Virus record (IMG/VR): IMGVR_UViG_3300008339_000051
Location: 1 to 62,526 of that record
Source of the DNA: a virus
Strand: one strand, 5' to 3'
DNA length: 62,526 nucleotides
Of the stretch, positions 189 to 60,198 are shown in pieces. Under the pieces are notes generated by a model, which saw only the letters and a program-made list of their open reading frames with translations, did no database searches and was not told the DNA's origin. How positions within the stretch are numbered: the first letter of the stretch is position 1; each line of letters starts with the position of its first letter. The position numbers and the translations under genes are program-made.

Positions 189-195
189 TATTTAT
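189..195 (+). promoter_or_regulatory. TATTTAT element (putative late promoter)
   Basis: TATTTAT ends 5 bases before the ATG of the HAD-like gene and follows a terminator, so a new transcript must start near here. It is one of a recurring set upstream of structural genes. With so short a gap the message would be nearly leaderless. Confidence 0.4.
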
Positions 196-200
196 ATTAT

Positions 201-1121
201 ATGTTTAATTACAAAAAAATAGTAAAACGTATTATTTCAGAGGTCACTCAAGAAAATATGTTAAAATATGGTCTTAAGTATTATGCTTTTGATTGGGATG
301 ATAATTTAATGGAAATGCCGACCCTTATTTATTTAAAAGACGAAGATGGTGACGTTATTGGTATGTCCACTGAAGATTTTGCTGAATACAGAACTTTAGT
401 AGGTCAAGAACCGTTCAATTATAAAGGTCATATGATAGTAGGTTTTGATAAAGACCCATATAGAGATTTTGGAGTTTCAGGTGACAGGAAATTTTTAGAA
501 GATATTAAATACGCACCAATCGCATCACAAGATGTGTGGAATGACTTTAAAGAGGCTATCAACTATGGAAGTGTGTTTGCGATTATTACAGCAAGAGGAC
601 ATACACCATCAGTTCTAAAAAGAGCTGTCAAATATCTTATAGAAAACAATATGCATGGAATTGAGAAATCTCAGTTAATAAAAAATTTAAAAGAATATAG
701 AAGAAGAGCTGGGTTAAAACAAGTAGAAAATGAGAATTGGTTAATTAACGATTATTTAGAGAGATGTCAATTCTCACCTGTTTCATACAGAGCAGGTTCT
801 GCTGCAAATCCAGAGGAAGCGAAAATACGAGAAATAAAAAGATTTATGACAAATCAGAGAAGGTCATCAAAAAAATTTCAGAAATCCTATTTTATTAACC
901 ACGTTAGTTCGGGAGATGATTCTGTGGGAGGTAACCTATTTAAATTTGTTGAACCAAAATTTGGTTTTTCAGATGACGACGAAAGAAATGTCCATTCAAT
1001 GAAAAATAAATTAAGTGATAAAGAAAAAGAAAACTTAAATATTTATTTAACAAAAGGAGGAGAAAAAAATATTTATGAAAACTGGTCTAGTAGAAGATTA
1101 GTTCAAAATAAAAGGAAGTAA
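201..1121 (+). CDS. HAD-like phosphatase with a possible N-terminal propeptide
   Basis: A 306-residue protein. Residues 30-36 (FDWDDNL) fit haloacid dehalogenase motif I with Asp31 and Asp33. IITARG (residues 128-133) fits motif II with Thr130. FSDDDERNV (residues 254-262) fits the late Asp motif. The family mainly contains phosphohydrolases; the substrate cannot be told, and nucleotide or nucleic acid 5'/3' phosphates are possible. The N-terminus YKKIVKRIISE is basic and ends in I-S-E, like the first residues of several other proteins in this window, so the protein may be cleaved and packaged in the virion. It sits alone between sheath and tube, with its own upstream terminator. Confidence 0.6.
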   Translation: MFNYKKIVKRIISEVTQENMLKYGLKYYAFDWDDNLMEMPTLIYLKDEDGDVIGMSTEDFAEYRTLVGQEPFNYKGHMIVGFDKDPYRDFGVSGDRKFLEDIKYAPIASQDVWNDFKEAINYGSVFAIITARGHTPSVLKRAVKYLIENNMHGIEKSQLIKNLKEYRRRAGLKQVENENWLINDYLERCQFSPVSYRAGSAANPEEAKIREIKRFMTNQRRSSKKFQKSYFINHVSSGDDSVGGNLFKFVEPKFGFSDDDERNVHSMKNKLSDKEKENLNIYLTKGGEKNIYENWSSRRLVQNKRK

Positions 1122-16627: not shown

Positions 16628-17317
16628 ATGAATATTGATAGAAAAATATTAGAGGAGATTAATAGATACAGGAGTATTAATAATTATATAAATGAACAAG
16701 AAGACCCATTAGCGGGTGGAGCACCACCGGCAGATCCGTTAGCGGGTGGAGACCCGTTAGCAGGAGGAGATCCAATGGCGGGAGGTGACCCAATGGCTGC
16801 AGGAGCACCACCAGCAGGAGCACCACCAGCAGGAGCACCAGAAGGAGGAGCACCACCAGCAGGAGGAACAGAAGCTGCCCCTGTTGATGTAAGTACCGAC
16901 CCTGATGTCGAAGAAGTAGGTAAAGAAGAAGAGGATGAAGAATTAGACATCACAGATTTAGTTACGGCTCAAAAAAACATAGAAACTAAACAAGAGGAAT
17001 ATTTTCAAAATCTATTTAAACAATTAGAAACTTTAGATGCAAAACTAAAAGAAATGGATGGAATTGCATCTAAACTTACCTCGATAGAAGATAAAGTAGA
17101 AAGGTATAAACCAAAAACACCTCAAGAAAAATTAGAGTTACGAAGTTTAGATTCAGGTCCTTTCAAACAAAAACTATCCGATTTTTTTGTTGATAAACAA
17201 GAAGAGATGGAAAAATCGGGAAAAAATGAATATGTGTTAACTTCCGACGAAGTTAAAGATTTTTCCTCTGGACAAATTGAGGATTCATTTAATGAATATT
17301 TAGACGAAGAATACTAA
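16628..17317 (+). CDS. Gly/Ala/Pro-repeat protein with possible propeptide and coiled-coil tail
   Basis: A 229-residue protein in three parts. Residues 1-24 are charged and end in YINE followed by QEDP, matching the (I/L)xE ending seen on other proteins here. Residues 25-85 are tandem PLAGGDP and GAPPA units, unlike anything nearby and locally GC-rich. Residues 100-229 are acidic and helical, with heptad-like spacing around 125-165 (coiled coil likely), and end in FNEYLDEEY. No enzyme motif. It could be a scaffold-like, packaged or linker protein. It lies at the end of a structural transcript, directly before a terminator and the replication block. Confidence 0.55.
   Translation: MNIDRKILEEINRYRSINNYINEQEDPLAGGAPPADPLAGGDPLAGGDPMAGGDPMAAGAPPAGAPPAGAPEGGAPPAGGTEAAPVDVSTDPDVEEVGKEEEDEELDITDLVTAQKNIETKQEEYFQNLFKQLETLDAKLKEMDGIASKLTSIEDKVERYKPKTPQEKLELRSLDSGPFKQKLSDFFVDKQEEMEKSGKNEYVLTSDEVKDFSSGQIEDSFNEYLDEEY
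16700..16875 (+). repeat. Imperfect tandem repeats encoding PLAGGDP / GAPPA
   Basis: Short direct repeats built on gcaccaccagcagga and gcgggtggagacccg variants. They are strikingly GC-richer than the surrounding AT-rich DNA and code for the low-complexity segment of the gene at 16628. Confidence 0.75.
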
Positions 17318-40001: not shown

Positions 40002-43000
40002 TGAGTTGTGGTGTAATAATATTGAATAATATTCAAATAACAGGCGATTGTCAAAACACAGGTTCAGGGGCGTTTTCCTTTACAATAGCGGGGGGTGTCT
40101 CTCCTTACTCAGTTTCAGAATTTACGTCAACAGGTTTAATACCACCCGCAGGACCAGTTACCTCATATACCGCAACTAGTTTGACGGCTGGAACATATAC
40201 TGTAGAAATATTAGACAGTTGTAGTGAACCAGGACACACAAGAGGTTATTTTAATTTTACAATATCATCAGGAAGTTGTGTTTCGATAGAAGCGTCAGGA
40301 ACAACTTGTGGATTGAACAATGGATCGATTACCGCAAATACATCTGTCGTATATGGTACATCAACTTTAGATTTGTACGATATCGATGGTAATTTAATTG
40401 GAACTGGAAGTAACATTAATAACACTTTTAATAATTTATCACCAGGTTTATATTATGTGATTGGAAATGATGGTGGGGGTTGTACAGGAAAAAGTGAAGT
40501 TTGTTTAATAAAGGAATCAGACCCATTGGATTTTGGGTTATTTGGTGTTAATGATTCTAGCTGCGTATCAATAGATGGAAATGGTAAAATTTTTGTTACA
40601 GGATTAACAGGAACACCACCATACACATATAACTGGACACCAAATGTGGGTGTTCAAACAGGACCTGAAGTTATTGGTTTAAATCCGGGAACTTATGGTG
40701 TAACAATAATAGATGCAAATGGTTGTACATTAACTAAAACTATTACATTATCTGAAGTCCCAATACTTGGAGTTGCTTCTATTTTAACAACTGAACAACC
40801 AAGTTGTTTTACAAATGATGGGGAGGTTACTGTTGTATTATCAGGAGGAACCGCACCATATTATTTTTCAGGTTCAAACGGAGATATCCAAGTTGAATTC
40901 GGAAATACTCATACCTTTACAGGATTACCTGCGGGAGTTTTTTCAGTATTTGTAACAGACTCAGGATTATGTACAACAACAGCCTCCGTTAGTTTATTAA
41001 CACCAAACGGTTTTATTGTCACAACTTTACAGGTAACAAATTCAAACTGTAATTTGAACGACGGTTCAGTTCACATTGAGTTAAATAATGGATTAGCACC
41101 AGGAAACTTTCAATACACATTGACCGACCCATTCGGAAATACAACAATTACGACCGCATTATCAATTTGTGATTTCAGTGGGTTGACAAGTGGTTTATAT
41201 ACATTATCAATACAAGATATACCAAATAATTCAGGTTGTATTTTTACAACAAGTTTTAGTGTTTTAAATGAGAATAAATACACAATTGCAACAAGTTTCT
41301 CAAATACATTTTGTGGATTTAATAATGGAACGGTTATAATTACGGCTTCATCAGGAGGTACATTACCATTAACGTATACTTTGTCAGGTGGAACACCAAT
41401 AACAACCACAACACAATTAACAAATACATTCACAAATCTTACACCAGGTTTTTATTTGGCTTCAGTTTCTGATTCTGCAACACCACCTTGTGTACAACAA
41501 GAGTTAATTTATATATCACCATCACAACCAGTTGATTTTTTCCTTTCGACTATACAACCCGTAAGTGGAAACGATGGTGAAATATTTTTAAATATAACAG
41601 ATGGTATTCCTCCGTTTACAATTAATTGGAGTTCTAATGTTGGTTCACAAACAGGATTACATTTAGTTAATTTATCAAATGGTACATATTCTGTAACCGT
41701 TATAGATAGTAGTGGATGTACTAAAACGGCTGAGGTTGTTTTAAGTGGAACAGAAATAACCACAATATACGAGTCCTATACTATTTGTAGTGATGATTTT
41801 GTTAACACGGGTAAATATGGGAAAAGAGGGATACTTCAAATGATGAATGAAGGATTCTTCGATTTGACAGTTGGTAATACAGGTTGTCAAATAATTAATG
41901 CCACATTTACAACACAAGTAAACATTGATGGTAATATAAAAGAAAATTTATTTTATACCTATACTGGGGGAACATTTGCCACTTTTGCAGAGTACCTTTG
42001 GATCCAAAGCTTACAAAATACACTTAATGAATATCCCGAAATAGGAGATGTGTTTATTGATGTTGCAACAAACAAAATCACAATAACAAATAATTGTGAT
42101 GAAAAAAATAAAAATTGTATATCGGTTAATTTTAATGAATTGGCAGATATTAATGTTAAAATCAATCTTCTAATTGAATATGAGATAATTTGTGAGACTT
42201 GTGGTAAACAGCGTGATTGTAATAATTTTATTGCGGATATAACATTAAATGATTCTTGTGAGGATTTCGAGGCTGATATTGAATTTGCAACCCCAACCCC
42301 AACAATAACATTAACACCAACACCCACACCTACAATAAGTGTTACACCAACATTAACGCCAACCCCAACATTAACACCAAGCCCGACACCTACAAATTGT
42401 TTTTGTTATTTCTTAGATGGTAATTATTTTGTGGCAACAATATTCGACTATGATGATTGTAAAATCGGACCAACATCAATACTATTAAGAGAACAAGTAG
42501 CTTATGTGTGTTCAACATCAGTACCTACAGTTGTTTCTGGTCCTGGTTCTGCTACTTTGTCAATCATTTACTCTTGTGACACAGGAGAATGTGGACCAAC
42601 ACCTTCACCAACACCAACACCTACACCTACACCATCATTACCAACACCTCCTGACCTTTTATCTTGTGATGTTATTGTTTGTGATTTTACAAATGTTTAT
42701 GGGTATTTTACCCCCACAAATAGTGAAACAAATTTAGTTCCTTTTATTACAGGTTGGGTGTCTGCGTTTTTTTCAGATAACGCACATACAGCAAATAAAC
42801 TTTGGTTGTTAGACAGTAGCTTAGGAAATGTTAATATTTTTGAATATGATATAACACTTTCACCATTTTCAGGTAATTACAATAGAACTATTAGTTTTGG
42901 ATCAACACAATTTGGACCAGGATTGGCAGCAATTGATGACACAACATTGATATGTGTGACAGGTGTGACACAAATTATAGAAATGGACATAAGTGGTGTT

Positions 43001-43357
43001 TCACCTGTAATTACAAATAAGTTTAACATACCTTTTACACGACAAGTGTCTGGTGACTTTATATATACTACAAGTAATAAACTTATAGTAACAACAAAGG
43101 ATGATGGTAATGAATATATAAGTCAGTATGATTATACAACTGGTGTACAAGAAATAGACATACAACTTAGCCCAACAATTACAGATGCTTTTGGTTTGTA
43201 CACAGAGTCATCAAAAATACACATAGTCACATCATATGGTCAGGTTTGGACAATTGACGAAACGTTCCCTTATGGATTAAACTTCCTACAAACCTCCACA
43301 CTATTATTCAACGGGGCATCACAATTACCATCATGTAATATAATAAACTTTACATAA
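40001..43357 (+). CDS. Tail fibre with SprB-like repeats and Pro/Thr linkers
   Basis: An 1118-residue protein. Residues about 30-580 hold roughly seven beta repeats of the SprB kind (for example GTPPYTYNWTPN, LNPGTYGVTIIDANGC at 203-243, and GIPPFTINWSSN, LSNGTYSVTVIDSSGC at 535-574). A domain at 585-755 begins YESYTICSDDFV. A Pro/Thr linker (763-797) leads to a Cys-rich CxCY module (798-866), then a second Pro/Thr linker. The last 230 residues have repeated strand patterns like a beta-propeller (NKLWLLDSSLGNVNIFEYDI). SprB-type repeats are typical of flavobacterial surface adhesins, so a receptor-binding role is likely. It is the first gene after the baseplate operon and overlaps it by one base. 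Confidence 0.7.
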   Translation: MSCGVIILNNIQITGDCQNTGSGAFSFTIAGGVSPYSVSEFTSTGLIPPAGPVTSYTATSLTAGTYTVEILDSCSEPGHTRGYFNFTISSGSCVSIEASGTTCGLNNGSITANTSVVYGTSTLDLYDIDGNLIGTGSNINNTFNNLSPGLYYVIGNDGGGCTGKSEVCLIKESDPLDFGLFGVNDSSCVSIDGNGKIFVTGLTGTPPYTYNWTPNVGVQTGPEVIGLNPGTYGVTIIDANGCTLTKTITLSEVPILGVASILTTEQPSCFTNDGEVTVVLSGGTAPYYFSGSNGDIQVEFGNTHTFTGLPAGVFSVFVTDSGLCTTTASVSLLTPNGFIVTTLQVTNSNCNLNDGSVHIELNNGLAPGNFQYTLTDPFGNTTITTALSICDFSGLTSGLYTLSIQDIPNNSGCIFTTSFSVLNENKYTIATSFSNTFCGFNNGTVIITASSGGTLPLTYTLSGGTPITTTTQLTNTFTNLTPGFYLASVSDSATPPCVQQELIYISPSQPVDFFLSTIQPVSGNDGEIFLNITDGIPPFTINWSSNVGSQTGLHLVNLSNGTYSVTVIDSSGCTKTAEVVLSGTEITTIYESYTICSDDFVNTGKYGKRGILQMMNEGFFDLTVGNTGCQIINATFTTQVNIDGNIKENLFYTYTGGTFATFAEYLWIQSLQNTLNEYPEIGDVFIDVATNKITITNNCDEKNKNCISVNFNELADINVKINLLIEYEIICETCGKQRDCNNFIADITLNDSCEDFEADIEFATPTPTITLTPTPTPTISVTPTLTPTPTLTPSPTPTNCFCYFLDGNYFVATIFDYDDCKIGPTSILLREQVAYVCSTSVPTVVSGPGSATLSIIYSCDTGECGPTPSPTPTPTPTPSLPTPPDLLSCDVIVCDFTNVYGYFTPTNSETNLVPFITGWVSAFFSDNAHTANKLWLLDSSLGNVNIFEYDITLSPFSGNYNRTISFGSTQFGPGLAAIDDTTLICVTGVTQIIEMDISGVSPVITNKFNIPFTRQVSGDFIYTTSNKLIVTTKDDGNEYISQYDYTTGVQEIDIQLSPTITDAFGLYTESSKIHIVTSYGQVWTIDETFPYGLNFLQTSTLLFNGASQLPSCNIINFT
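42290..42392 (+). repeat. Pro/Thr linker repeat, copy A
   Basis: Tandem degenerate ACACCAAC/CCAACA units encoding alternating Thr-Pro with ISVTP insertions, linking the domains of the fibre at 40001. Confidence 0.8.
42596..42650 (+). repeat. Pro/Thr linker repeat, copy B, with 17-base inverted match
   Basis: ACACCAACACCTACACC at 42611-42627 is matched exactly, in inverted orientation, at 55601-55617 in the minus-strand fibre gene. Confidence 0.75.
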
Positions 43358-43364
43358 AAAATAA

Positions 43365-43371
43365 TATTTAT
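43365..43371 (+). promoter_or_regulatory. TATTTAT element before the 726-residue fibre gene
   Basis: TATTTAT 5 bases before the ATG at 43377, in a 19-base gap between fibre genes. It belongs to the recurring set. Confidence 0.35.
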
Positions 43372-43376
43372 AAAAT

Positions 43377-45557
43377 ATGGCATCACCAACAGAAGTTACA
43401 ATAAATTCTATATCAGCGGCAACATATCCTGTTGATGTTTTTGTTTGTTCAGGATGTCCTGATACTAATTGTGTATTAGTCGACACAATCACATCTGTTC
43501 CAGTAACTATAACAATCCCACCACCATATGCTTTAGACCCAACATTTTCGGTTTCTATAGTCGATTCTGAAAATTGTATATATTGTCAAACATTTGGAAC
43601 AACAACTACAACAACTACAACAATAAATCAAATTTGTGATATATGTGAAATTGGATTTGACTTTTATGACACTAACCCAATATCTGAAATATCGGTTGGT
43701 GTAGTTACGGGTAGTTGTGACACAACAATTACCGACTATGTTATTGATTGGTATGGTCCTGGAATTGGAAGTACAAACGTTGCTTTCACTTCAGGATTAG
43801 GTAGTTTATATAGTGGTGACTACACATATATACACCCTTTAACGGGTACAAGTGCCGTTCCTGTTGCTGCGGGTATTTATACTCCTATCATAAGAATTAT
43901 TACAGTAGACGGTGTTGAATACACAGATGCGAATTGTTTTTCATCAACATTTGTTGATGTTGACGCACTTACTTGTACAAATGGTTCACCAACAAATTAT
44001 CCACAATATTCGCATAAAATTTCTTATAGTGCGACGACTAATGTCATACCACAACCAGTTTATAGTACATTCGCATTAGATCCGACTAAACCATATTTTG
44101 CGTTCCGAGTTTTGGGGTATTCGGTATTTGATACATTTACAATAACATTTTTTGGTAGCGATTATCAAGATCCAATAGTGATTGAAAATTTGTCCGTAGG
44201 GTTAGACTTAACAGAAACAAATTTTAACTTTTCTCTTAACCCTAAAACTGCAAAACCGTTTCTTACACCAGAAACTTACTTGTCAAAAGTTTTAACTTTG
44301 ACAGGTTTTACAATAAATAACGGTGATTATTTAGAAATAAAAATAACACCAAATCAAACTAATCTGAATACAAATTATCAATTTTATTGTGAATGTTTAG
44401 AATCGTTTGATTGTTCATTATGTTATGATACAAATAACACACCACCATTTAAAATAATACAATCGTCAATAACACAAACAACACCAACTGCGTGTGATAG
44501 AATAAACATGACATTTCAAGTCAGCTCTTGTACTGATAGTGACTTTTATCAATATATGTTAACTAATACAAGATGGGTTGATACTGTGTACGAAGACTTA
44601 TTTTATAACGAAAATATTTTTACATTAAATAATTTGAGTTCTGTATCTCAATTATTTTGTAGTATTTCTGCGGTACAATATCCAGTATCTTGTAAAATAC
44701 CAAATACTAATACAATAACATATGACAAAATAGTTTCTGGTGGAATAGGGTTGATAAATATGACTTTCAGTGATTTTAATGATATGTCTGATTATTATAA
44801 TGATTGGCAAACCAAATATTCATTATACTCAGGAAGTCCTTTTGATTGTACTAGCCTCGGTTATTTGAGGTACTTTCAACTTCAAATTCCATTAGCACAG
44901 GGTGCTGAAAATTGTGGAGATAATACAGGATACCAAACTTTTATCATACACCCCTCCTCAACGGTAACCAGCGGTGGAACTGGACCTTGGACATTATCAT
45001 TTACTATGCCAACTATACCAGATTGTACGAGTTTTTCACAATGTGATTTTAATTGTGAAAATGTGGTAAACAATGTGATTACAAATATTAATATACAGTC
45101 TACTGCTACAACAAATAATATTAGTGTTGTTAGCAATACTGGGTCTATGTTAGAACAACCAATAGTTCTATGGGCAGTTACTCAAACCGGTACCTCTGCA
45201 TATTCTGCGGCAACATTTGGAACTCAGATGAGCATTCCTCAATACATAAATGAAACAATACCATATTCTGGATTACCTCTAACGATAATCCCAAGTTTAA
45301 GTGCAAAAACTTGTAATTTTAGTGATTGGACATTTCGTAGTTATTCACCAACTAATAATTTGAGTTACTATCTCAACATTGGTTTACAAGTAAAAGTAAC
45401 AAGACCGAATCCATTAAATGTTGAAGACTTCGAACTATGGTCATATGTTCCTGTTAATGGTACGTGGCCAGGATATCCAGTGGTAGATCCATTTGTAAAA
45501 ATATACGAACAAATAGGTGGTGTACCTAACGTAATTGACCCAAGTTTTTTCATATAA
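43377..45557 (+). CDS. Fibre/appendage protein with shared N-terminal module and poly-Thr linker
   Basis: A 726-residue protein. Residues 1-70 form a small beta module (VTINSISAATYPVDVFVCSG, then a late VSIVDSENCIYCQ) that recurs in the next gene and on the minus strand at 56281. A run of Thr (about 73-80) is the linker. The remainder is a Cys-rich, Asn/Thr-rich beta protein with segments such as FDFYDTNPISEISVGVVTG and FAFRVLGYSVFD, not assignable to a known fold from sequence alone. No enzyme motif. Its place among fibre genes indicates a surface appendage. It is 1 base from the next gene's ATG. Confidence 0.55.
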   Translation: MASPTEVTINSISAATYPVDVFVCSGCPDTNCVLVDTITSVPVTITIPPPYALDPTFSVSIVDSENCIYCQTFGTTTTTTTTINQICDICEIGFDFYDTNPISEISVGVVTGSCDTTITDYVIDWYGPGIGSTNVAFTSGLGSLYSGDYTYIHPLTGTSAVPVAAGIYTPIIRIITVDGVEYTDANCFSSTFVDVDALTCTNGSPTNYPQYSHKISYSATTNVIPQPVYSTFALDPTKPYFAFRVLGYSVFDTFTITFFGSDYQDPIVIENLSVGLDLTETNFNFSLNPKTAKPFLTPETYLSKVLTLTGFTINNGDYLEIKITPNQTNLNTNYQFYCECLESFDCSLCYDTNNTPPFKIIQSSITQTTPTACDRINMTFQVSSCTDSDFYQYMLTNTRWVDTVYEDLFYNENIFTLNNLSSVSQLFCSISAVQYPVSCKIPNTNTITYDKIVSGGIGLINMTFSDFNDMSDYYNDWQTKYSLYSGSPFDCTSLGYLRYFQLQIPLAQGAENCGDNTGYQTFIIHPSSTVTSGGTGPWTLSFTMPTIPDCTSFSQCDFNCENVVNNVITNINIQSTATTNNISVVSNTGSMLEQPIVLWAVTQTGTSAYSAATFGTQMSIPQYINETIPYSGLPLTIIPSLSAKTCNFSDWTFRSYSPTNNLSYYLNIGLQVKVTRPNPLNVEDFELWSYVPVNGTWPGYPVVDPFVKIYEQIGGVPNVIDPSFFI

Positions 45558-45558
45558 A

Positions 45559-45864
45559 ATGTCACAAATACAAATTGTAAATAGCACAACATTGGCATTA
45601 CCATATCAGGTATTTGCTTGTGATGTGTATGGAAATCAATGCGCCATTTTAGCAACTATCGGAAGTTATCAACCGCCAATATTAACTTTAACCCTACCAC
45701 CACAATTTAATTATGCACCATCAATAGGAGTTAAAATAATAGATTTTAACGAATGTGAATACTTTAAGATATTGTCGTGTTTAGTATACCCTGAGAACAA
45801 ACAGTTTCAAAATGGGGAAAACTTCTTTTTTATGGATGACATATCATACGATTTTCAAAGTTAA
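45559..45864 (+). CDS. Small stand-alone copy of the shared fibre module
   Basis: A 101-residue protein from the ATG at 45559, 1 base after the upstream stop; an upstream in-frame ATG at 45535 would overlap that gene and seems less likely. IQIVNSTTLALPYQVFACD and SIGVKIIDFNECEYF align with the N-terminal module of the 726-residue protein: hydrophobic strand, Pro-Tyr-x-Val-(F/W)-x-Cys, then late (V/I)-x-I-(I/V)-D. A short tail ends FMDDISYDFQS. It may be a cap, connector or chaperone for the fibre made just upstream. Confidence 0.6.
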   Translation: MSQIQIVNSTTLALPYQVFACDVYGNQCAILATIGSYQPPILTLTLPPQFNYAPSIGVKIIDFNECEYFKILSCLVYPENKQFQNGENFFFMDDISYDFQS

Positions 45865-45889
45865 GATAATTATTAATTAAAAGGATATA

Positions 45890-46423
45890 ATGGGTTATCT
45901 TACCGATAGAACTTTCATTTCATACATTAAACCAACTGACTTAATTCATGTGGTCGATCCGACTGATGTTTCTCAAGGAAATCCTGACGGTTCGTCATAT
46001 AAAGGGTCGATACAACAAGTTTTTGATGCTTTTTTTGATGTTTTTGTGACTGGTGGAACATATTCTAACGGAACAGTAACATTTAGAAATAATACGGGAG
46101 GAACATTTAATGTAACAGGATTCTATACTGGTGGAAGCGATTTTTATACCGTAACAGGTATAACAACATCACAAACATTAATTTGGGACAAATCATATTG
46201 GGGTATTAGTGGAAGTTCGAATGTAGATTTGACTTTACCATCTACTGTTGGTAAAGATGGTTATTTTATAACAATAAAAGATGAATCTGGAACTTGTGGT
46301 ACATACAGAATAAGATTAACACCAACATCAGGTTTAATTGATGGTAATTCATACGTTGATATGAATATAAACTATATGTCTCTTACTGTTATGGTGAGAA
46401 ACGGAAATTGGTATATAATATGA
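45890..46423 (+). CDS. Short tail fibre-like protein, 177 residues
   Basis: YIKPTDLIHVVDPTDVSQGN followed by SYKGSIQQVFDAF (residues 12-50) is a pattern I recognise from the N-terminus of fibre proteins of marine phages, probably the attachment part. The rest is beta-rich (GGTYSNGTVTFRNNTGGTFN, then LTLPSTVGKDGYFITIKDES). The end resembles a compact C-terminal tip. It overlaps the next gene by 4 bases (ATGA), so the two are translationally coupled. Confidence 0.55.
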   Translation: MGYLTDRTFISYIKPTDLIHVVDPTDVSQGNPDGSSYKGSIQQVFDAFFDVFVTGGTYSNGTVTFRNNTGGTFNVTGFYTGGSDFYTVTGITTSQTLIWDKSYWGISGSSNVDLTLPSTVGKDGYFITIKDESGTCGTYRIRLTPTSGLIDGNSYVDMNINYMSLTVMVRNGNWYII

Positions 46424-47640
46424 GTTTTATTTTTAATAATCAGATTTCTTATAGTGATAGTGCAAATTTGGATGCATTTGGTAGATTGAGAACCGCAGCA
46501 GTTCAAAATTTAGTGGATATTAAACACGTATACGATAAAAATCCGTTACAAATTAATGAGGTAACCGCAGGAACTGCAACATCCATTTTTAATCAAGAGT
46601 ATGCAAGAGTTAGAATGTCAACATCCGCAAATAATGATTTGGTGATTAGACAAGGTAAGACACACCCAATTTATCAACCAGGTAAAAGTCAGTTATTTCA
46701 AGCGAGTTTCTCAAATTTTCAGTTAGAAACAAATATCATAAAAAGGGTTGGGGCTTTTACAACAATAACAGGGTCACCATACAATTCAGTTTTTGATGGA
46801 TACTTTTTGGAAAGTAATGGGGTTACAAATGAAATAAGTTTTCAGATATGGAGGTCGGGTACAACAGTTTACACTGCGGCAACAACCACATGGAACAGTA
46901 ATGAATTTGACCCAATAGGTTTAGATTGGTCTAACACTAATTTAATGTCGGTTGATTATCAATGGTTAGGTGTTGGTAGAATGAGATTTGGATTAGATTT
47001 AGCAGGGATATTAATTTACTTTACAGAACATAATTGTGCTAATAACGAACCTGATGTTTATATGTCATCACCAAATCAACCTATCAGGTACGAAATAAGA
47101 CAGGTTGGGGTTGGTTCAGGTTATTTTGATATGATATGTTCACAAGTATGTTCAGAAGGAGCATTAAACGGGTTATATTCAACTGTAGGTGTGATAAACT
47201 CAACAACGGCAGATTTAAATTCATCAGGTACAAAATATCCATATATTGGTTATAGGCTTAAACCGACTTATAAATCTGTGACATCACAATATAGTAGTTT
47301 GAGTATTTTAAACACCTCAAATGATAATTACTTACTAACTATTGAGTATAACCCTACATTATCTGTAACCCCAAGTTGGACCGACATACCAAACTCACCA
47401 TTTCAGTATTCAGTTTATAACGGAACTGTGACGGCAACAATAACATCACCAGGACATATTATGTCATCCTTAATTGGTGAATCAGGAACATCCGCCCTTA
47501 CAACCCTTAAAATTGACGACAATCAAATTAGAGTTGGTTCTAATGTTAATGGAACACTTGATGAAATGTGGATATGTATAACACCATTAAGCGCGAGTGC
47601 AACATTTTTGGGAACTGCAGAAGTATTATATTATCTTTGA
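46420..47640 (+). CDS. Virion structural protein of the fibre region, 406 residues
   Basis: The start at 46420 (ATGA overlap) is preferred over an in-frame ATG at 46408. SDSANLDAFGRLRTAAVQNL and DIKHVYDKNPLQINEV (residues 10-47) form a recognisable opening seen in structural proteins of large marine phages. The body is beta-rich, with YARVRMSTSANNDLVIRQG and FDGYFLESNGV, and has no catalytic motif. Such proteins may be trimeric fibre shafts or capsid decorations; the neighbourhood favours fibre. Confidence 0.55.
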   Translation: MSFIFNNQISYSDSANLDAFGRLRTAAVQNLVDIKHVYDKNPLQINEVTAGTATSIFNQEYARVRMSTSANNDLVIRQGKTHPIYQPGKSQLFQASFSNFQLETNIIKRVGAFTTITGSPYNSVFDGYFLESNGVTNEISFQIWRSGTTVYTAATTTWNSNEFDPIGLDWSNTNLMSVDYQWLGVGRMRFGLDLAGILIYFTEHNCANNEPDVYMSSPNQPIRYEIRQVGVGSGYFDMICSQVCSEGALNGLYSTVGVINSTTADLNSSGTKYPYIGYRLKPTYKSVTSQYSSLSILNTSNDNYLLTIEYNPTLSVTPSWTDIPNSPFQYSVYNGTVTATITSPGHIMSSLIGESGTSALTTLKIDDNQIRVGSNVNGTLDEMWICITPLSASATFLGTAEVLYYL

Positions 47641-47642
47641 TT

Positions 47643-47649
47643 TATTTAT
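47643..47649 (+). promoter_or_regulatory. TATTTAT element before the glycosyltransferase gene
   Basis: TATTTAT 25 bases before the ATG at 47675. It suggests that the enzyme is expressed with the late fibre genes. Confidence 0.4.
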
Positions 47650-47674
47650 TTGTTTTATTTCATAATTTTTAATT

Positions 47675-48652
47675 ATGGAAGATATTTTATTTGTAACAGC
47701 TCAACCTGACGTTCCTTATTTTCATTGGCAAGTAAAACTATATGTGTATAATTTTATTGAAAAAGGAATAGACCCACAAAATATTCATGTGATATTTGCT
47801 ATGGTTCACGGAAAAAAAGAACCTAGCGATGAGGCAAATGAATTAAAAAATTATGGTATAAATGTTCATTTTTATACTGATGATAGAAACTCAAAAACAT
47901 ATATACCAAGTATTAAACCCTATCTTATTTATAGATGGTTAGAGGAAAATCCAAGATATGGAAAATTATTCTTTTTACACGATGCCGATATAATATTCAA
48001 TTACCTACCTAATTTTGATGGTATGTTAGATGATGATTTTACTTATCTGTCGGATACAATTGGTTATATTGGTTATAACTACATAAAGGATTGTTGTAAT
48101 AGATATGAAACACAACATCCTAACTCTGAAGTAGAACAATTACTTAGAGAAATGACAGATGTTGTTGGTGTATCAATAGAATGTGTTAAATGTAATCAAG
48201 AAAATTCAGGTGGGGGACAATATCTTATCAAAAACACAGACAGTGAATTATGGAAAAAAATATATAACGATTGTACCCCATTATATTATCAAATGTTAGA
48301 CTACCAAAAAAGATTTCCGATAAATCCTGGTCAAATACAATTTTGGACTGCCGAAATGTGGTCATTACTTTGGAATTTATGGTTAAATGGTAAAGAGACT
48401 ATTGTGACAGAAAAATTGGATTTTTCATGGGCGACAGATAATATCAAAATTTATGAAAAAAAACCAATACTTCATATGGCGGGTGTTACAGAAAATTTAA
48501 AGTCTACTAAATTTTATAAAGGTGATTACATAAATGTTGACCCAATTGAAAAATTAAAAAATGATAAGTCATATTTTGATTATGTAGACAAAGATAGTTC
48601 TACGATAAAATACATAGAGGTCATGAAATCCTTTATTGAAAAAAATAAATAA
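47675..48652 (+). CDS. GT-A-type glycosyltransferase in the fibre cluster
   Basis: A 325-residue protein. Opening ILFVTAQPDVPYFHWQVKLY, then LFFLHDADIIF with a DxD-type Asp103-Ala-Asp105 for metal and nucleotide-sugar binding, then SGGGQYLIKN and FWTAEMWSLLWNLW, follow the layout of GT-A glycosyltransferases. The start somewhat resembles enzymes that glycosylate Pro-rich proteins, but I cannot name the family with certainty. It is surrounded by genes whose proteins carry Thr-Pro and poly-Thr linkers, natural O-glycosylation substrates. Modification of phage DNA or the host surface is an alternative. Confidence 0.6.
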   Translation: MEDILFVTAQPDVPYFHWQVKLYVYNFIEKGIDPQNIHVIFAMVHGKKEPSDEANELKNYGINVHFYTDDRNSKTYIPSIKPYLIYRWLEENPRYGKLFFLHDADIIFNYLPNFDGMLDDDFTYLSDTIGYIGYNYIKDCCNRYETQHPNSEVEQLLREMTDVVGVSIECVKCNQENSGGGQYLIKNTDSELWKKIYNDCTPLYYQMLDYQKRFPINPGQIQFWTAEMWSLLWNLWLNGKETIVTEKLDFSWATDNIKIYEKKPILHMAGVTENLKSTKFYKGDYINVDPIEKLKNDKSYFDYVDKDSSTIKYIEVMKSFIEKNK

Positions 48653-48655
48653 TTG

Positions 48656-48662
48656 TATTTAT
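48656..48662 (+). promoter_or_regulatory. TATTTAT element before the 357-residue fibre gene
   Basis: TATTTAT 16 bases before the GTG start at 48679. It belongs to the recurring set. Confidence 0.4.
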
Positions 48663-48678
48663 TATTAAAGTTAAAATA

Positions 48679-49752
48679 GTGAGTGAACCAAAGACACCAG
48701 CAAGTATTATACCAAGGAATGAATGTGATGTTATCACAATATTTCCTATGGGTGCAAAGTGTTTTACAAAACAACCGACAACTTCACAGTCTTTTGATGG
48801 TGCAGTTACATTAGGTGTAACAGGAGGGACACCACCATATACAATAAATTGGAGTAATGGTAGTATATCTCCTGCTTTGAATAATTTAGGTGTGGGAGAA
48901 TATCAAGTTACCGTGAGAGATACTTACGGTGATTTTATTGTTACAACAAAATGTGTGTTAGGGATAACACCAACCCCCACTCCTACACCAACAAATACAC
49001 CTGCATTAACACCTACACCAACCTCTACAGTAACACCAACACCTACAGTAACGCCAACACTTTCAATAACACCAACACCAACTAACACACCATTACCAAC
49101 TTTAACACCATCACCTACTACACTACCAGTAATTTGTTTTGTAACTGAATATGAAGAGTTAGGTCCAATATATACGGCTATAACTCAGACTGGTTTATAT
49201 AATGGAAAACCATATTATGAACTTGTTGGTATTGTAAATAGTATTTTTGTTTGGTATAACACTTCATTAGATAGGTGGGAACTAACAACTGTTTTAGGTG
49301 GTGGTACATTGTTGGCTTATTTAGAATCAACAAATGACTTCCCTGTTGACAACACTGTTGACTGGCAAGCGGTTAGAGTATTATATATGTATACATCTTT
49401 CGGTGATTGTGCTTACCCTCCTGTGGAAATGTGTTTTAACGTTAAGAAAAATGGTGAAGTACCAATTAATATTTCATACACTGGATATGTTGTTGGAACA
49501 TTGAATGGAAAATATATTTATGGTATATATAACGGAAATATATTAATAGGTAATGTATATTATGATAACACACAAAATAGATGGGAATTTTATCAAGTTG
49601 TGTCACAATCAGGCCCAAGTGGGACATTCTACGCTTACCTAAACTCTACGGGTAATTATCCAAACAGTACCATTTCTGCGACTTGGGTCAACCAACCTAA
49701 CGTTGGATACGGAATAAACGAATCGACATTAGGACCATGTCATATAGGGTAA
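48679..49752 (+). CDS. Modular fibre: SprB-like repeat, Pro/Thr linker, two NRWE modules
   Basis: A 357-residue protein starting at GTG (no suitable ATG; the next Met is residue 24, inside the first domain). Residues 47-95 are an SprB-like repeat (GGTPPYTINWSNGSISPALN). Residues 97-150 are a long Thr-Pro linker. Residues 151-250 and 253-355 are two copies of one module, each with a Gly-Lys-x-Tyr segment and a WYN/YYD-(N/S)-x-x-x-R-W-E strand (FVWYNTSLDRWEL; VYYDNTQNRWEF). The module also occurs downstream and on the minus strand. Likely a short receptor-binding protein. Only 7 bases separate it from the next gene. Confidence 0.65.
   Translation: MSEPKTPASIIPRNECDVITIFPMGAKCFTKQPTTSQSFDGAVTLGVTGGTPPYTINWSNGSISPALNNLGVGEYQVTVRDTYGDFIVTTKCVLGITPTPTPTPTNTPALTPTPTSTVTPTPTVTPTLSITPTPTNTPLPTLTPSPTTLPVICFVTEYEELGPIYTAITQTGLYNGKPYYELVGIVNSIFVWYNTSLDRWELTTVLGGGTLLAYLESTNDFPVDNTVDWQAVRVLYMYTSFGDCAYPPVEMCFNVKKNGEVPINISYTGYVVGTLNGKYIYGIYNGNILIGNVYYDNTQNRWEFYQVVSQSGPSGTFYAYLNSTGNYPNSTISATWVNQPNVGYGINESTLGPCHIG
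48968..49128 (+). repeat. Pro/Thr linker repeat, copy C
   Basis: About 160 bases of degenerate ACACCAACA-type units encoding Thr-Pro, the longest such linker in the window. It shares 15-base exact words with linkers on both strands. Confidence 0.8.
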
Positions 49753-49759
49753 TTGATTT

Positions 49760-50755
49760 ATGAATTTATGTGCTCAAATACAAATCTATGAAAATCAACA
49801 AAATAGCCTGTTGAATATCGTGCTCCAACAAGGAAATACGATAAATGGAAAACAAAGTTGGAATAGTGTCAATGGATTGTCAATTTATTGGTACACAGGT
49901 ACAACGAATCAATGGTTATTAACTGGATACCCAAACACATTTATTTTCTCATATACAACAGATGAAATACCTTTATTTGGTTGGCAAATATTAGGGTCTC
50001 AACCACCAAGACAAATAAAAGATGTGACCATTATTACAGGTGATTGTAATCCAAATACGGTGGTTGATGTTAATGTGGATGTAACAAATTCAACTTGTGG
50101 TTGTGATGGTTCTATAGTAATTAATCCTTTAGGTGGTCAAAGACCATTTAGTTATTTTGTCAATGGAGTTAGACAAATTACTAATTTTGTACAAAAACTT
50201 TGTAAAGGAAAATATGTAATAAGCACGGAAGATGTTAGTGGTAACACCGCATTTAAAGAAGTGTTTGTTGGTGGTAATGAAGTAACAAATTATTTTATAA
50301 CCTCTAGTTTCAATAAAGAGTCAAAAACCTTTGAAATAAGTGTGAACCCACCATTAAAAAACAACACACAAATTATTTTTGATTTAGTTTATACAAATAT
50401 TTTTGATTATACACCAAGTTTTTCTTCTGTAACACAAAATGTTAATGAAAGGATTTTTAAAAATAGACAAGAGTTAGGACAATATGATATTATTAATCAA
50501 AATACGCAAACACAAACTTTGAAAAGACCTTGTGATGGAACAAAATATACACAAACAACAATAAAACAATGGAAGAACTTAACAATTGGTAGTGGTGATA
50601 CAATTAATGGATTTATATTTAGTGATATGATACCTAATATAGATGTAACAACAAATTGTTTTGTCTATAACCAAAATTTGAACATTAATTTAAGTAATGT
50701 GAAGGTGTTAAATTGTGGGTGTTGTAATGTAACAAAAATAATTAATAACAAATAA
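49760..50755 (+). CDS. Modular fibre: NRWE-like module plus SprB-like repeat
   Basis: A 331-residue protein. Residues 1-85 are a degenerate copy of the NRWE module (INGKQSWNSVNGLSIYWYTG then NQWLLTG). Residues 100-175 are SprB-like (VTNSTCGCDGSIVINPLGGQ, RPFSYFVNGV, CKGKYVISTEDVSGN). The C-terminal half is another beta domain with a CDGTKYTQ segment and a closing CGCC near the end. The order of modules is reversed relative to the upstream gene, as expected from shuffling. It is probably co-transcribed with the upstream gene. Confidence 0.6.
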   Translation: MNLCAQIQIYENQQNSLLNIVLQQGNTINGKQSWNSVNGLSIYWYTGTTNQWLLTGYPNTFIFSYTTDEIPLFGWQILGSQPPRQIKDVTIITGDCNPNTVVDVNVDVTNSTCGCDGSIVINPLGGQRPFSYFVNGVRQITNFVQKLCKGKYVISTEDVSGNTAFKEVFVGGNEVTNYFITSSFNKESKTFEISVNPPLKNNTQIIFDLVYTNIFDYTPSFSSVTQNVNERIFKNRQELGQYDIINQNTQTQTLKRPCDGTKYTQTTIKQWKNLTIGSGDTINGFIFSDMIPNIDVTTNCFVYNQNLNINLSNVKVLNCGCCNVTKIINNK

Positions 50756-54592: not shown

Positions 54593-54623
54593 AATATCGT
54601 CTTTTTAGACGATATTTTTTTTT
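54593..54623 (+). terminator. Strong terminator between converging genes
   Basis: A perfect 10-bp stem (AATATCGTCT 54593-54602 with AGACGATATT 54607-54616) with a TTTT loop and nine T. It serves the plus-strand RuvC-like gene and overlaps the stop of the minus-strand gene. Confidence 0.85.
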
Positions 54624-56064
54624 ATGGTATAGGTTGAACAGGAACTGATGGTGTAATTGACACGTCACATATATCAACAGCAGTTCCACCCAATATAGGA
54701 GGGTTGTCACCAAGAATGGTTAATGTTGTGTATGAACTAGGTGAGGTTATTTTGAAAACTCCACCACCTATTGTGTTACCATGAATCGGATCATTACAAG
54801 GTGTTGCTTTTATTAAAGTATCTATAATTTCCGCACAACAATATTCACATGATGTAATAGTCACCCCACCACCGTTTGTTACAAACCTGAAAGACTCAAA
54901 CACTGTTGGACTTACATATTCATAACCTAACAATCTTATTACTACATTATTTACAGGTGAACCAAATGTTAAAGTATAATTGAAAGGATTAGGATTTGCG
55001 GTTGGGTTTAATGAATTACTTCCCAAAGATAAGTAACCATCCATCACCGCAGGTTCACCTACGCAATATGGTAAGAAACCTCCAAAAATACCCTCTTCTA
55101 TTGAACCAGTACCTGTTGCACTCAACGTGACACCATTTATTACTATTGAGTTACCCGGTTGAGGTAAGTTACTTACAGTTTTGCATTCAAAACAAGGAAT
55201 TGCCTGTGTTGGTGTAGGTGTTGGGGTTGGTGTTATTGTTGGTGTTGGAGTGTTTGATTGAATAGGCACACATTGAATACAAGCACCTTGAGAACTTAAA
55301 CCGATCTCACGAACTATTTCAATGTTGTCAACACCTGATATATTATCAACTAAACCAACAAATGATGCACATACTGTTTTATTGTTTATTATTAATTCAT
55401 AAACATAACCTTCATTTGGTGTTTGACCACTTAAAAGTAAAAGTTCTGACGTGTAATAATCTTTACCTGTAAAACAATCTACAAACTTCTTACTGTTAGA
55501 ACATCTGATATAATCATCAATGATATTAAAAGTTACCAAACCACCAACAAAACATTCATTTGTCGGTGTTGGTGTTGGCATTGGTGTATTACTAATAGTT
55601 GGTGTAGGTGTTGGTGTATATGTTATTCCGCCAGCGGTAAAATCTAAAACATTACAAACATTAGATGCTGTTGGAGTTGGTGTTGGTGTTATTGTTGGTG
55701 TAATAGACGGAGTAGGTGTAGGTGAAACTGGTACATCACAATTAAAATATGCGTCAAAATCTATAATACCACAAGATTCCAAAGTTGTTGTAGTGGGTGA
55801 GACAACACAATATCCATTAAAGAAAAAAGTATCACACAAATTAGGACAAGGACTGTCAAAATTACAACTTGGAGGACCGAATAAATCACAAGAACCCCCT
55901 AAACTTGTTGAAACACACCATCTATTTTCTGATGAAGAAAAATATATAACATAAGTCCCATTAGAACCTGTATAATAAGGGTAAAACAAGTAAGTACCCG
56001 CTTCTGTGTAGTTGTCGTCATAAATTGTTGTTCCTGAAATACAGTATTCGGTAGGGCAAGTCAT
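54622..56064 (-). CDS. Minus-strand modular fibre protein with three Pro/Thr linkers
   Basis: A 480-residue protein. Residues 1-87 are an NRWE-type module (YVIYFSSSENRWCVSTSLGG). Three Thr-Pro linkers (about 114-132, 149-168, 271-286) separate small Cys-containing domains. The last 190 residues are a beta domain (GNSIVINGVTLSATGTGSI; NNVVIRLLGYEYVSP). Composition, linkers and modules are those of the plus-strand fibres, but the gene is inverted. Its start is 1 base from the stop of the minus-strand gene at 56066, forming a two-gene operon read toward the plus-strand genes. Confidence 0.65.
   Translation of the reverse strand: MTCPTEYCISGTTIYDDNYTEAGTYLFYPYYTGSNGTYVIYFSSSENRWCVSTSLGGSCDLFGPPSCNFDSPCPNLCDTFFFNGYCVVSPTTTTLESCGIIDFDAYFNCDVPVSPTPTPSITPTITPTPTPTASNVCNVLDFTAGGITYTPTPTPTISNTPMPTPTPTNECFVGGLVTFNIIDDYIRCSNSKKFVDCFTGKDYYTSELLLLSGQTPNEGYVYELIINNKTVCASFVGLVDNISGVDNIEIVREIGLSSQGACIQCVPIQSNTPTPTITPTPTPTPTQAIPCFECKTVSNLPQPGNSIVINGVTLSATGTGSIEEGIFGGFLPYCVGEPAVMDGYLSLGSNSLNPTANPNPFNYTLTFGSPVNNVVIRLLGYEYVSPTVFESFRFVTNGGGVTITSCEYCCAEIIDTLIKATPCNDPIHGNTIGGGVFKITSPSSYTTLTILGDNPPILGGTAVDICDVSITPSVPVQPIP
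55203..55253 (-). repeat. Pro/Thr linker repeat, minus strand, copy E
   Basis: GTTGGTGTAGGTGTTGGGGT-type units, the reverse complement of the plus-strand linker units. Confidence 0.75.
55562..55620 (-). repeat. Pro/Thr linker repeat, minus strand, copy F, with 17-base inverted match
   Basis: GGTGTAGGTGTTGGTGT at 55601-55617 is the exact reverse complement of 42611-42627. Confidence 0.8.
55672..55730 (-). repeat. Pro/Thr linker repeat, minus strand, copy G
   Basis: The third Thr-Pro coding array of the inverted fibre gene, made of GTTGGTGTTG-type units. Confidence 0.75.
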
Positions 56065-56065
56065 A

Positions 56066-56281
56066 CTAAACGGTTATTGTATCTGTTTTTATACAGTTAT
56101 TATTGTCTATAATTTTCAAAACGAAAACACTTAATTCTGAATATATGTCTGGAACATTAAAAGAATAAGGTGCTGACGAGATTGTGGATACGTAAATACA
56201 ACCTGTGGATGCTGAGTTGCAAACCCAAACATCATAAGGTGAAGAACCAGTTAAACTGCTTATAGTTACTAAAGTTGGCAT
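56066..56281 (-). CDS. Minus-strand stand-alone copy of the shared small fibre module
   Basis: A 71-residue protein that is almost entirely the recurring module: LVTISSLTGSSPYDVWVCNS, then a middle strand, then VFVLKIIDNNNCIKTD. It aligns with residues 1-70 of the protein at 43377 and with the protein at 45559. It is the first gene of the minus-strand fibre operon, 1 base before the 480-residue fibre. Repeated pairing of this module with a large fibre suggests an assembly, cap or attachment role. Confidence 0.6.
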   Translation of the reverse strand: MPTLVTISSLTGSSPYDVWVCNSASTGCIYVSTISSAPYSFNVPDIYSELSVFVLKIIDNNNCIKTDTITV

Positions 56282-58925: not shown

Positions 58926-59552
58926 TTATTTGCTGTAAAACATACTGATTATCTTTTTGTCTATTTCTGAATAACTTGTAGTTTTAGTCCATCCCTGAAA
59001 GAATATACTTTCAGGGTATCGCCATGAATCATTAAAAAAACCTAAAGACTGTGTTAGTTCTTCACGAAGTAAATGTTTTTTTTCATCAATATTTTTTGTT
59101 CGATATATGTCAACATACATAGTACCTTTATATATTGTGTTGTTTTTTACATGAACCAAAAATAACCCCAAATCAACCACCGTTTTGTTTTTACTCAAAT
59201 AAACTTCAGAATTATACCATTTATCCGATCCTAAATAGATTCTAAAATTAGAACTATCTTTATTTTTTGTTATGTATATATCAAAATTAGAAATTAAACA
59301 ATTTAATTCTGAAACAATATTCGTTAATTCATATTCCAACTGACATATGTCGAGATCAATGTCTTTTCTATATTGAGGGTCATTAAAATAATCCTCGACA
59401 TAAATTATAATATTATTGTTCCATTTGTATGAAGACGTGTCATAATCATATTCACTTGAAAATGCAATCTCTTTTAAATAAGAGGTGTAATCTAATTCTT
59501 GAGAGTAACAAAAACTAGTATAAGCCAAAAATAAAAAAACAATTTTTTTCAT
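58926..59552 (-). CDS. Secreted protein resembling DUF2927, on the minus strand
   Basis: A 208-residue protein. The first 18 residues (Lys-Lys, a hydrophobic core, then CYSQ) form a signal peptide, probably cleaved before Glu-Leu. Near the C-terminus LLREELTQSLGFFNDSWRYP, then SIFF and YSEIDKKIISMFY, match the end of DUF2927-type proteins, related to zinc metallopeptidases, where Glu-Glu-x-x-Gln-x-Leu-Gly-x-x-Asn-Asp is typical. The classical HExxH His residues are absent, so activity is doubtful. Signal sequence, strand and upstream TAATTTTG suggest a host-derived accessory gene exported by the infected cell. Confidence 0.55.
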   Translation of the reverse strand: MKKIVFLFLAYTSFCYSQELDYTSYLKEIAFSSEYDYDTSSYKWNNNIIIYVEDYFNDPQYRKDIDLDICQLEYELTNIVSELNCLISNFDIYITKNKDSSNFRIYLGSDKWYNSEVYLSKNKTVVDLGLFLVHVKNNTIYKGTMYVDIYRTKNIDEKKHLLREELTQSLGFFNDSWRYPESIFFQGWTKTTSYSEIDKKIISMFYSK

Positions 59553-59590: not shown

Positions 59591-59597
59591 TATTTAT
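59591..59597 (+). promoter_or_regulatory. TATTTAT element before the 105-residue gene
   Basis: TATTTAT 33 bases before the ATG at 59631, with an A-rich leader. It suggests late expression of the small proteins that follow. Confidence 0.4.
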
Positions 59598-59630: not shown

Positions 59631-59948
59631 ATGAAAAGAATTGTAAGATTAACAGAAAGAGACTTGACTAGAATTGTTAGAAGAGTTATCAAAGAACAAG
59701 AAGACACTGTTAAATCTGGTGGTGGTGGGTCAGGACAAGTTGGGTCTACAATGAGTAACGGAAAAAGGATTTTTAAATTCACACCATCAGAACAAGATTC
59801 AGAGGCTATTTTTGTTCAGACTGAAGATTCTGGTGCGGGTCAAATGTTTTATTGTGGTCGACACGAACAAGGTAAATACGCACTTCATCCATCCACTAAA
59901 ATTACACAAGAAGAATCTCAAGCAATTTACGATCAATTTTGTAAATAA
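59631..59948 (+). CDS. Small protein with basic (I/L)xE-ending N-terminal peptide
   Basis: A 105-residue protein. Residues 4-21 (VRLTERDLTRIVRRVIKE, then Q) form a basic amphipathic helix ending I-K-E. A Gly/Ser spacer (30-40) and a small domain with two Cys follow (FYCGRHEQGKYALHP). The same N-terminal pattern occurs in the next gene and, less exactly, at 201 and 16628. In T4, short N-terminal peptides ending in (I/L)-x-E target internal proteins to the prohead and are then cleaved, so a packaged internal protein is proposed. The mature domain is not recognised. Confidence 0.6.
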   Translation: MKRIVRLTERDLTRIVRRVIKEQEDTVKSGGGGSGQVGSTMSNGKRIFKFTPSEQDSEAIFVQTEDSGAGQMFYCGRHEQGKYALHPSTKITQEESQAIYDQFCK

Positions 59949-59955
59949 AAAAAAT

Positions 59956-60198
59956 ATGGAAAAAATTGTTAGATTTACAAATCAAGATATGAATCGTGTT
60001 GTTGGTCGTGTTTTAAGAGAGGACGATTCCGAAAAAGGTAGTAATGTAAGTACAATAAAGGGTAGAGGATATGAGATTAATATTAAACAAAGAAGAGGTG
60101 ACAATATTTTCGAAATTGAATCTACTATGGATGGTTTATCAGAAGTTATAGAAAAACTTCAGATGTTTGAAAAAAACATGAGAAAATATAGAAAATAA
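59956..60198 (+). CDS. Small protein with the same N-terminal peptide, 80 residues
   Basis: The start at 59956 lies 7 bases after the previous stop; a longer frame upstream overlaps the preceding gene and is discarded. Residues 4-21 (IVRFTNQDMNRVVGRVLR) followed by ED match the N-terminal peptide of the upstream protein, ending L-R-E. The remaining 58 residues are a small, very charged alpha/beta domain (GYEINIKQRRGDNIFEIEST) with a C-terminal helix. The two genes are probably co-transcribed and followed by a strong terminator. Confidence 0.6.
   Translation: MEKIVRFTNQDMNRVVGRVLREDDSEKGSNVSTIKGRGYEINIKQRRGDNIFEIESTMDGLSEVIEKLQMFEKNMRKYRK

Follow-up and report, generated by a model that had tools for sequence, protein, structure and literature searches.

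Interchangeable N-terminal leaders point to an expanded capsid-targeting system in large lake phages of Bacteroidota

What keeps a common N-terminus on proteins that otherwise have no resemblance to each other? The question is raised by two adjacent genes near the right end of the IMG/VR record IMGVR_UViG_3300008339_000051, a fragment of a T4-like phage whose complete 62,526 bp are referred to here as the window. The encoded proteins of 105 and 80 amino acids (aa; 59631-59948 and 59956-60198, both + strand) have a 22-residue N-terminus in common, and their remainders are unrelated to each other. A first-pass annotation of the sequence had noticed this pair and read the recurring peptide, which ends in (I/L)xE, as a candidate capsid-targeting propeptide. 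Both open reading frames (ORFs) exist, the leader of the second beginning at ATG 59956 while a mechanical ORF list opens the gene at TTG 59812, and the peptide recurs on a far larger scale than first described. We consider it very likely that a T4-type capsid-targeting propeptide system, greatly expanded, explains the common N-termini. Below, an arrow marks a predicted cut.

59631..59696, + strand: leader, class A, 22 aa, MKRIVRLTERDLTRIVRRVIKE, predicted cut after Glu22 (I-K-E↓Q)
59697..59948, + strand: predicted mature cargo of the first gene, 83 aa, function not assigned; its homologue in locus L068 has a class E leader
59956..60021, + strand: leader, class A variant, 22 aa, MEKIVRFTNQDMNRVVGRVLRE, predicted cut L-R-E↓D
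60022..60198, + strand: predicted mature cargo of the second gene, 58 aa, for which no relative was found in the fetched loci examined

A leader with an exact end

A search of viral contigs in IMG/VR with the 59631 protein returned 92 related stretches, nearly all of which aligned over the first 22-45 residues only. The fetched loci hold 170 distinct proteins with this class A leader, the remainders of which sort into 110 families, 84 of them singletons; given these numbers, the common N-terminus at 59631/59956 is not due to chance. To avoid circularity, 108 class A cases were gathered by residues 3-12 only and the following residues were read afterwards. In this set the initiator Met always lies 2-3 residues ahead of the leader, Glu occupies position 22 in 106/108 cases, residue 20 is Ile in 87, Leu in 12, Val in 8 and Met in one (Ile or Leu in 99/108), and residue 21 is free (N, K, S, R, M, A, T and others). 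Residue 16, on the same helix as residue 20, is Val in 106/108. Conservation collapses past the Glu, with the information per column, 4.2 bits at residue 22, down to 1.6 at the next and to about 0.3-0.9 thereafter. I-N-E is the commonest ending, and the leaders are basic, with a mean net charge of +3, their sequences suggesting amphipathic helices.

The class A pattern at DNA level had five matches in 257 Gb of prokaryote genomes, none of them at a protein start, and tblastn with the 26-aa window leader gave no match in 50,697 phage records. A 23-aa consensus gave a single match in the same records (E 4), which was judged to be chance. To the extent of this tblastn comparison, no cultured phage is known to carry the class A leader.

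Further leaders and their exchange on homologous proteins

Other leaders were found by pairwise comparison of N-termini in G033, in G010 (a 290,887-bp record collinear with the window, 43/48 proteins in common, mean identity 73.6%) and in the cultured Flavobacterium phage vB_FspM_immuto_2-6A (immuto; isolation host Flavobacterium sp. LMO8), and the class patterns were extended to G013; ORF calling was simple and the patterns are loose. At least four further classes occur in the large relatives (genomes of ~290 kb), unlike in sequence and most of them ending in (I/L)xE, for example MKIIITESQYxxLxE, MNLQENIxRIKxMMGxIxE, MRxLIRHILKE (also (R/K)xLIRHILKE) and SEEEKxRIL...LNE. The (I/L)xE motif was present in 29/36, 13/16, 12/19 and 11/11 proteins of these four types, respectively, with shuffled means of 14, 6, 6 and 4. 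A hydrophobic residue followed by (I/L)xE falls within residues 1-20 in 24% of the ORFs of the three large genomes, compared with 6-14% elsewhere in the chain and with 9% in the partial T4 and crAss001 controls. Strict class patterns yield 48 leader proteins in G033, 30 in G013 and 24 in G010, while the positional excess (76-80 observed, where the rest of the chain would predict roughly 25-30) gives an approximate figure of about 50 per genome. In immuto, the unrelated gp230 and gp083 both carry MKKQILSEQF(K/R)RMQ(F/K)LAGIITE↓S, and a protein annotated as 5'-nucleotidase begins MKKVMGNLADLLLE↓E. A match to the class C pattern at window position 40001 was accidental and discarded.

Homologous proteins were found under different leaders. 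The mature domain of the 59631 protein aligns with its L068 homologue at 41% identity over 75 residues (alignment score 133, shuffled maximum 45), yet the homologue begins MGKFVISEEEKKRILNMHQSQYSKNVLKE↓N, a class E leader, in place of class A. A DHH-like protein (61% identity) has a class D leader in G013 (MKNLIRRIIKE↓ETTKLLNE↓SGIR) and a class C leader in G033 (MKMVITESQYKRLLNE↓SGIR), and a 75%-identical pair differs in having a class D versus an ITESQL leader (MKNLDRLIKQVLRE↓DKESSRYMFF and MNREIKITESQLTSLIRKVVNE↓SHKESSRYMFF). Two further genes of the window, at 201 and 16628, had been suggested to begin with looser versions of the leader.

201..242, + strand: leader, class D, 14 aa, MFNYKKIVKRIISE, predicted cut I-S-E↓V
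243..1121, + strand: HAD-like phosphatase cargo with DWDDN, TARGH and GFSDDDERN motifs
16628..16696, + strand: leader, 23 aa, MNIDRKILEEINRYRSINNYINE, predicted cut I-N-E↓Q
16697..17317, + strand: predicted mature Pro/Gly-linker protein, conserved in at least 80 contigs and adjoining a gp32-like gene in the window

Both hold. Orthologues of the 201 protein begin MNYYKFLVKKIIKE↓, MNYKTFVKDIITE↓ and MNIRKHVFNYLNKTNLNE↓, and in an alignment of seven orthologues (KRIISE/KKIIKE/KKIILE/KKILKE/KDIITE/KTNLNE) only K9 and E14 are invariant before the enzyme domain. In a structure model of this protein, residues 1-22 have a predicted local distance difference test score (pLDDT) under 50; the nearest PDB folds are HAD phosphatases, none at a significant score. 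In the 16628 family, Y-(I/V/L)-x-E-Q is kept in 31/31 distinct extracted N-termini with x varying freely; the extraction pattern demanded (I/V/L)xE, but neither the Tyr, the Gln nor a fixed position.

These exchanges bear on the possibility that the set is only partly real, with class A and a few others being true targeting peptides and the class D and unclassified short leaders being ordinary amphipathic N-termini. The unclassified group did hold obvious false positives, e.g. metabolic enzymes, and the class D motif count in the test interval (12/19) equals the shuffled maximum, partly as the motif often precedes residue 12. However, homologous cargo proteins, the HAD protein of the window among them, bear class D leaders in some cases and other leaders in others, and we regard such a split as rather unlikely.

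A Cys-containing segment, YK(R/K)SI(D/N)CNNPKGFSQ(K/R)AHCQG, is near-identical in G010 (185455), G013 (262675) and G033 (238979) under three leader classes and, judged by its sequence, is a second exchangeable module.

Protease, capsid protein and upstream motif

The window encodes a T4-like tail tube, baseplate hub, gp32-like and UvsX-like proteins and a baseplate wedge, while head genes are absent from its 62.5 kb. Among the leader-bearing records, which are fragmentary, Peptidase_S77 (the gp21-type protease) was detected above the curated profile cut-off in 18/42, G010 included, and in 4/5 of those longer than 270 kb; the fifth, G011, judging from its coordinates, nearly duplicates G010 and ends ahead of the protease. 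The relatives' protease matches T4 gp21 (5jbl_A) with E 3.6e-15, and tblastn found relatives of it with a prohead protease annotation in 2,410 phage records. Both the ELNHP and the SRG motif, which we take to be the catalytic His and Ser regions, are kept in 79/79 protease relatives. The protease gene lies in a T4-like head cluster together with gp23, a scaffold-like protein and a protein of 69-72 aa whose C-terminus is at or close to KIDEVIE. In the gp23-type capsid protein of G010, similarity to mature T4 gp23* starts at residue 61, directly past FLINE60, and INE↓A or INE↓S is kept in 57/57 gp23-type relatives. Immuto, which also has a gp21-type protease, shows IVSE↓A at the corresponding place of its capsid protein.

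Leader genes and head genes also have an upstream motif in common, TATTTAT, found twice close to leader genes of the window.

59591..59597, + strand: TATTTAT, late-promoter-like motif, 33 bp upstream of the first leader gene
189..195, + strand: TATTTAT motif, 5 bp upstream of the HAD-like gene at 201

The 16628 gene lies close behind a gene preceded by TATTTAT. Among 7-mers upstream of leader genes, it ranks first in enrichment in two of three relatives and second in the remaining one, and it can also be seen ahead of the protease, scaffold and capsid genes. It precedes 59/102 leader (58%), 41/90 structural (46%), 5/30 metabolic (17%) and 138/587 remaining genes (24%), with p=6e-5 for leader versus metabolic and p=3e-11 for leader versus rest, TATTTAT having been chosen from the leader genes themselves and the sole independent comparison being structural versus metabolic (p=0.005). 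Unlike TATTTAT, the T4-style TATAAATA did not show clear enrichment upstream of leader genes in every one of the three genomes. An extended form, (A/G)TATTTAT(A/T)A, occurs in the window, G010, G013 and G033, mostly at a distance of 0-20 bp from the start codons of the head, tail and leader genes that follow it, and is likely a late promoter element of these phages.

Head cargo, rival explanations and related phages

The modular leader, its exact end, its exchange on homologous cargo, the protease, the capsid-protein site and the common upstream motif, all read from the sequences, are what argues for capsid targeting. Cargo proteins with one of several interchangeable amphipathic leaders would be made late in infection and bound by the leader to the prohead core, where a gp21-type prohead protease would cut after (I/L)-x-E. 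The freed mature proteins would then remain in the head beside the DNA and probably be ejected into the host at the next infection. The initial idea of a cargo system packaging unrelated proteins, a phosphatase among them, is thus borne out with respect to diverse cargo including enzymes, swappable (I/L)xE leaders, and the protease and capsid site of relatives; core binding, cleavage, packaging and injection we infer.

Several points weigh against this explanation. In 17/170 class A leaders, V or M stands at P3 (residue 20) or the Glu is absent; class D and other short leaders are loosely defined, so the per-genome counts are approximate; leaders of 14-28 aa are slightly longer than those of T4; and TATTTAT was picked from the leader genes. 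Moreover, the first-pass annotation had staked its reading on an (I/L)xE-cleaving prohead protease in the genome, which is present in leader-bearing relatives, including the collinear G010, and was not found in the window or in the known contigs of its own phage, which end about 16 kb before the expected place. A contig walk from G045 towards the head cluster of this phage did not reach it. The proteases encoded in the same samples differ among themselves, so none could be assigned to this phage.

Alternatively, the leader might be an uncut localisation or docking helix for a membrane, a replication site or another phage structure, unrelated to the head, and the basic, amphipathic-looking class A leaders could indeed bind a membrane or a partner. 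A docking helix would leave unexplained the Ile or Leu at P3, the free P2, the invariant Glu and the abrupt end of conservation, as well as the identical end on unrelated leader families, the matching site in the capsid protein and the upstream motif common to head genes, which makes it quite improbable. Barely credible is a role of the leader merely as a handle for homologous recombination or as a leftover of recent gene duplication, conserved as DNA: leader genes do cluster (e.g. at 206-268 kb in G033) and cargo turnover is fast, but different peptides replace the leader on the same cargo, and codons vary at fixed residues (T8 ACA 81/ACT 51/ACG 12; L12 TTA 82/TTG 32/CTT 31; R18 AGA 61/CGA 49), so that selection acts on the peptide.

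Capsid targeting by propeptides has its closest precedent in T4, where internal proteins of diverse kinds carry propeptides of 10-19 residues that attach to the core and are removed by gp21 through cleavage after L/I-x-E, and where the internal protein IPI is an injected anti-restriction protein (PMC9026906). The lake phages resemble the T4 proteins IPI/II/III with their capsid targeting sequence (CTS) in the short N-terminal propeptide on divergent small proteins, its L/I-x-E end, the gp21-type protease and the gp22/gp23-type head cluster. They differ in having tens of such proteins per genome versus about four in T4, several unrelated leader families, apparently different leader sequences and broader kinds of cargo (lysozyme, GNAT, HAD-like, DHH-like, annexin-like, pterin dehydratase). 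The giant phages phiKZ, 201phi2-1 and SPN3US likewise combine large genomes with extensive prohead proteolysis, in which many head or ejection proteins are processed behind a short Glu-terminated motif (PMC9026906). The phiKZ motif, however, is S/A-x-E, whereas P3 of the class A leaders is I/L(V) and the lake-phage protease is close to T4 gp21. The phiKZ propeptides are not known to form a common leader module.

Very probably, the leader-bearing phages belong to the same group as the bS21-encoding freshwater Bacteroidetes phages, which have genomes up to 331 kb, the same head-gene neighbourhood with a reverse-strand S21-like ORF beside the protease, and a lake habitat (PMC9723584). In our relatives, an ORF of 61-64 aa on the strand opposite the prohead protease (G010 256810-256995, -; G033 156088-156282, +; L366 3605-3790, -) looks by sequence like the phage ribosomal protein bS21. 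The passages of PMC9723584 consulted do not mention leader peptides or packaged cargo, and literature searches for LTESDL and for capsid targeting in Bacteroidetes phages found no paper on either topic.

Most cargo proteins are without a Pfam-based function. The minority named by Pfam comprises phage lysozyme, peptidoglycan-binding, GNAT, annexin-like, pterin-4a-carbinolamine dehydratase, DUF2237, LysM, UVR, carboxypeptidase-regulatory-like and weak DHH matches, which would fit proteins for cell-wall passage and early host take-over. There is no systematic acidity in the cargo, a point against a set composed of DNA mimics alone. No member behind a weak ArdA match (E 1.4e-4) was identified among the rescanned proteins, and the match was left aside. 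Annexin-like GLGTDE/GLGTDD segments, unusual for a phage, occur in several class A cargo proteins of L005, L010 and L028, with a Pfam Annexin E of 7.7e-5 for one class A member. In L087 (2085-3227), a class A leader precedes a 381-aa protein with the segment CKYGAGSKWCTTAKDS.

The leaders thus point to a large and previously overlooked cargo of head-packed proteins in large Bacteroidota lake phages. We give even chances to the broader notion of an effector-loading platform, in which several leader addresses under one protease rule would bring about 50 exchangeable cargo proteins per virion, enzymes included, into the cell with the DNA and before phage gene expression. If head targeting holds, one short sequence rule would allow many genes of abundant lake phages now called 'hypothetical' to be predicted as head cargo acting in the first moments of infection, the small internal-protein set of T4 would be the minor end of a much larger strategy, and both a list of candidate anti-defence and take-over proteins and new targeting tags for loading proteins into phage heads would be at hand.

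Further features stand out in the window and in related records. Small proteins encoded at 58926-59552 (-) of the window and at 87962, 103791 and 200436 of G010 have apparent Sec-type signal peptides ending in SQ or GQ and are apparently exported by the infected cell. At 36999-50755 and 54622-56281 (-) of the window, a long array of proteins, some on the opposite strand, carries adhesin-repeat-like GTPPY/GTSPY/GGTPPY units. Finally, the record G001 is identical at the 59631/59956 locus and extends beyond the right end of the window (reverse-complement coordinates from 52384), where more short leaders follow (MRNLNRVIKNVLTE↓KQHK and MSLLEEIIRKNILKE↓QKFH).
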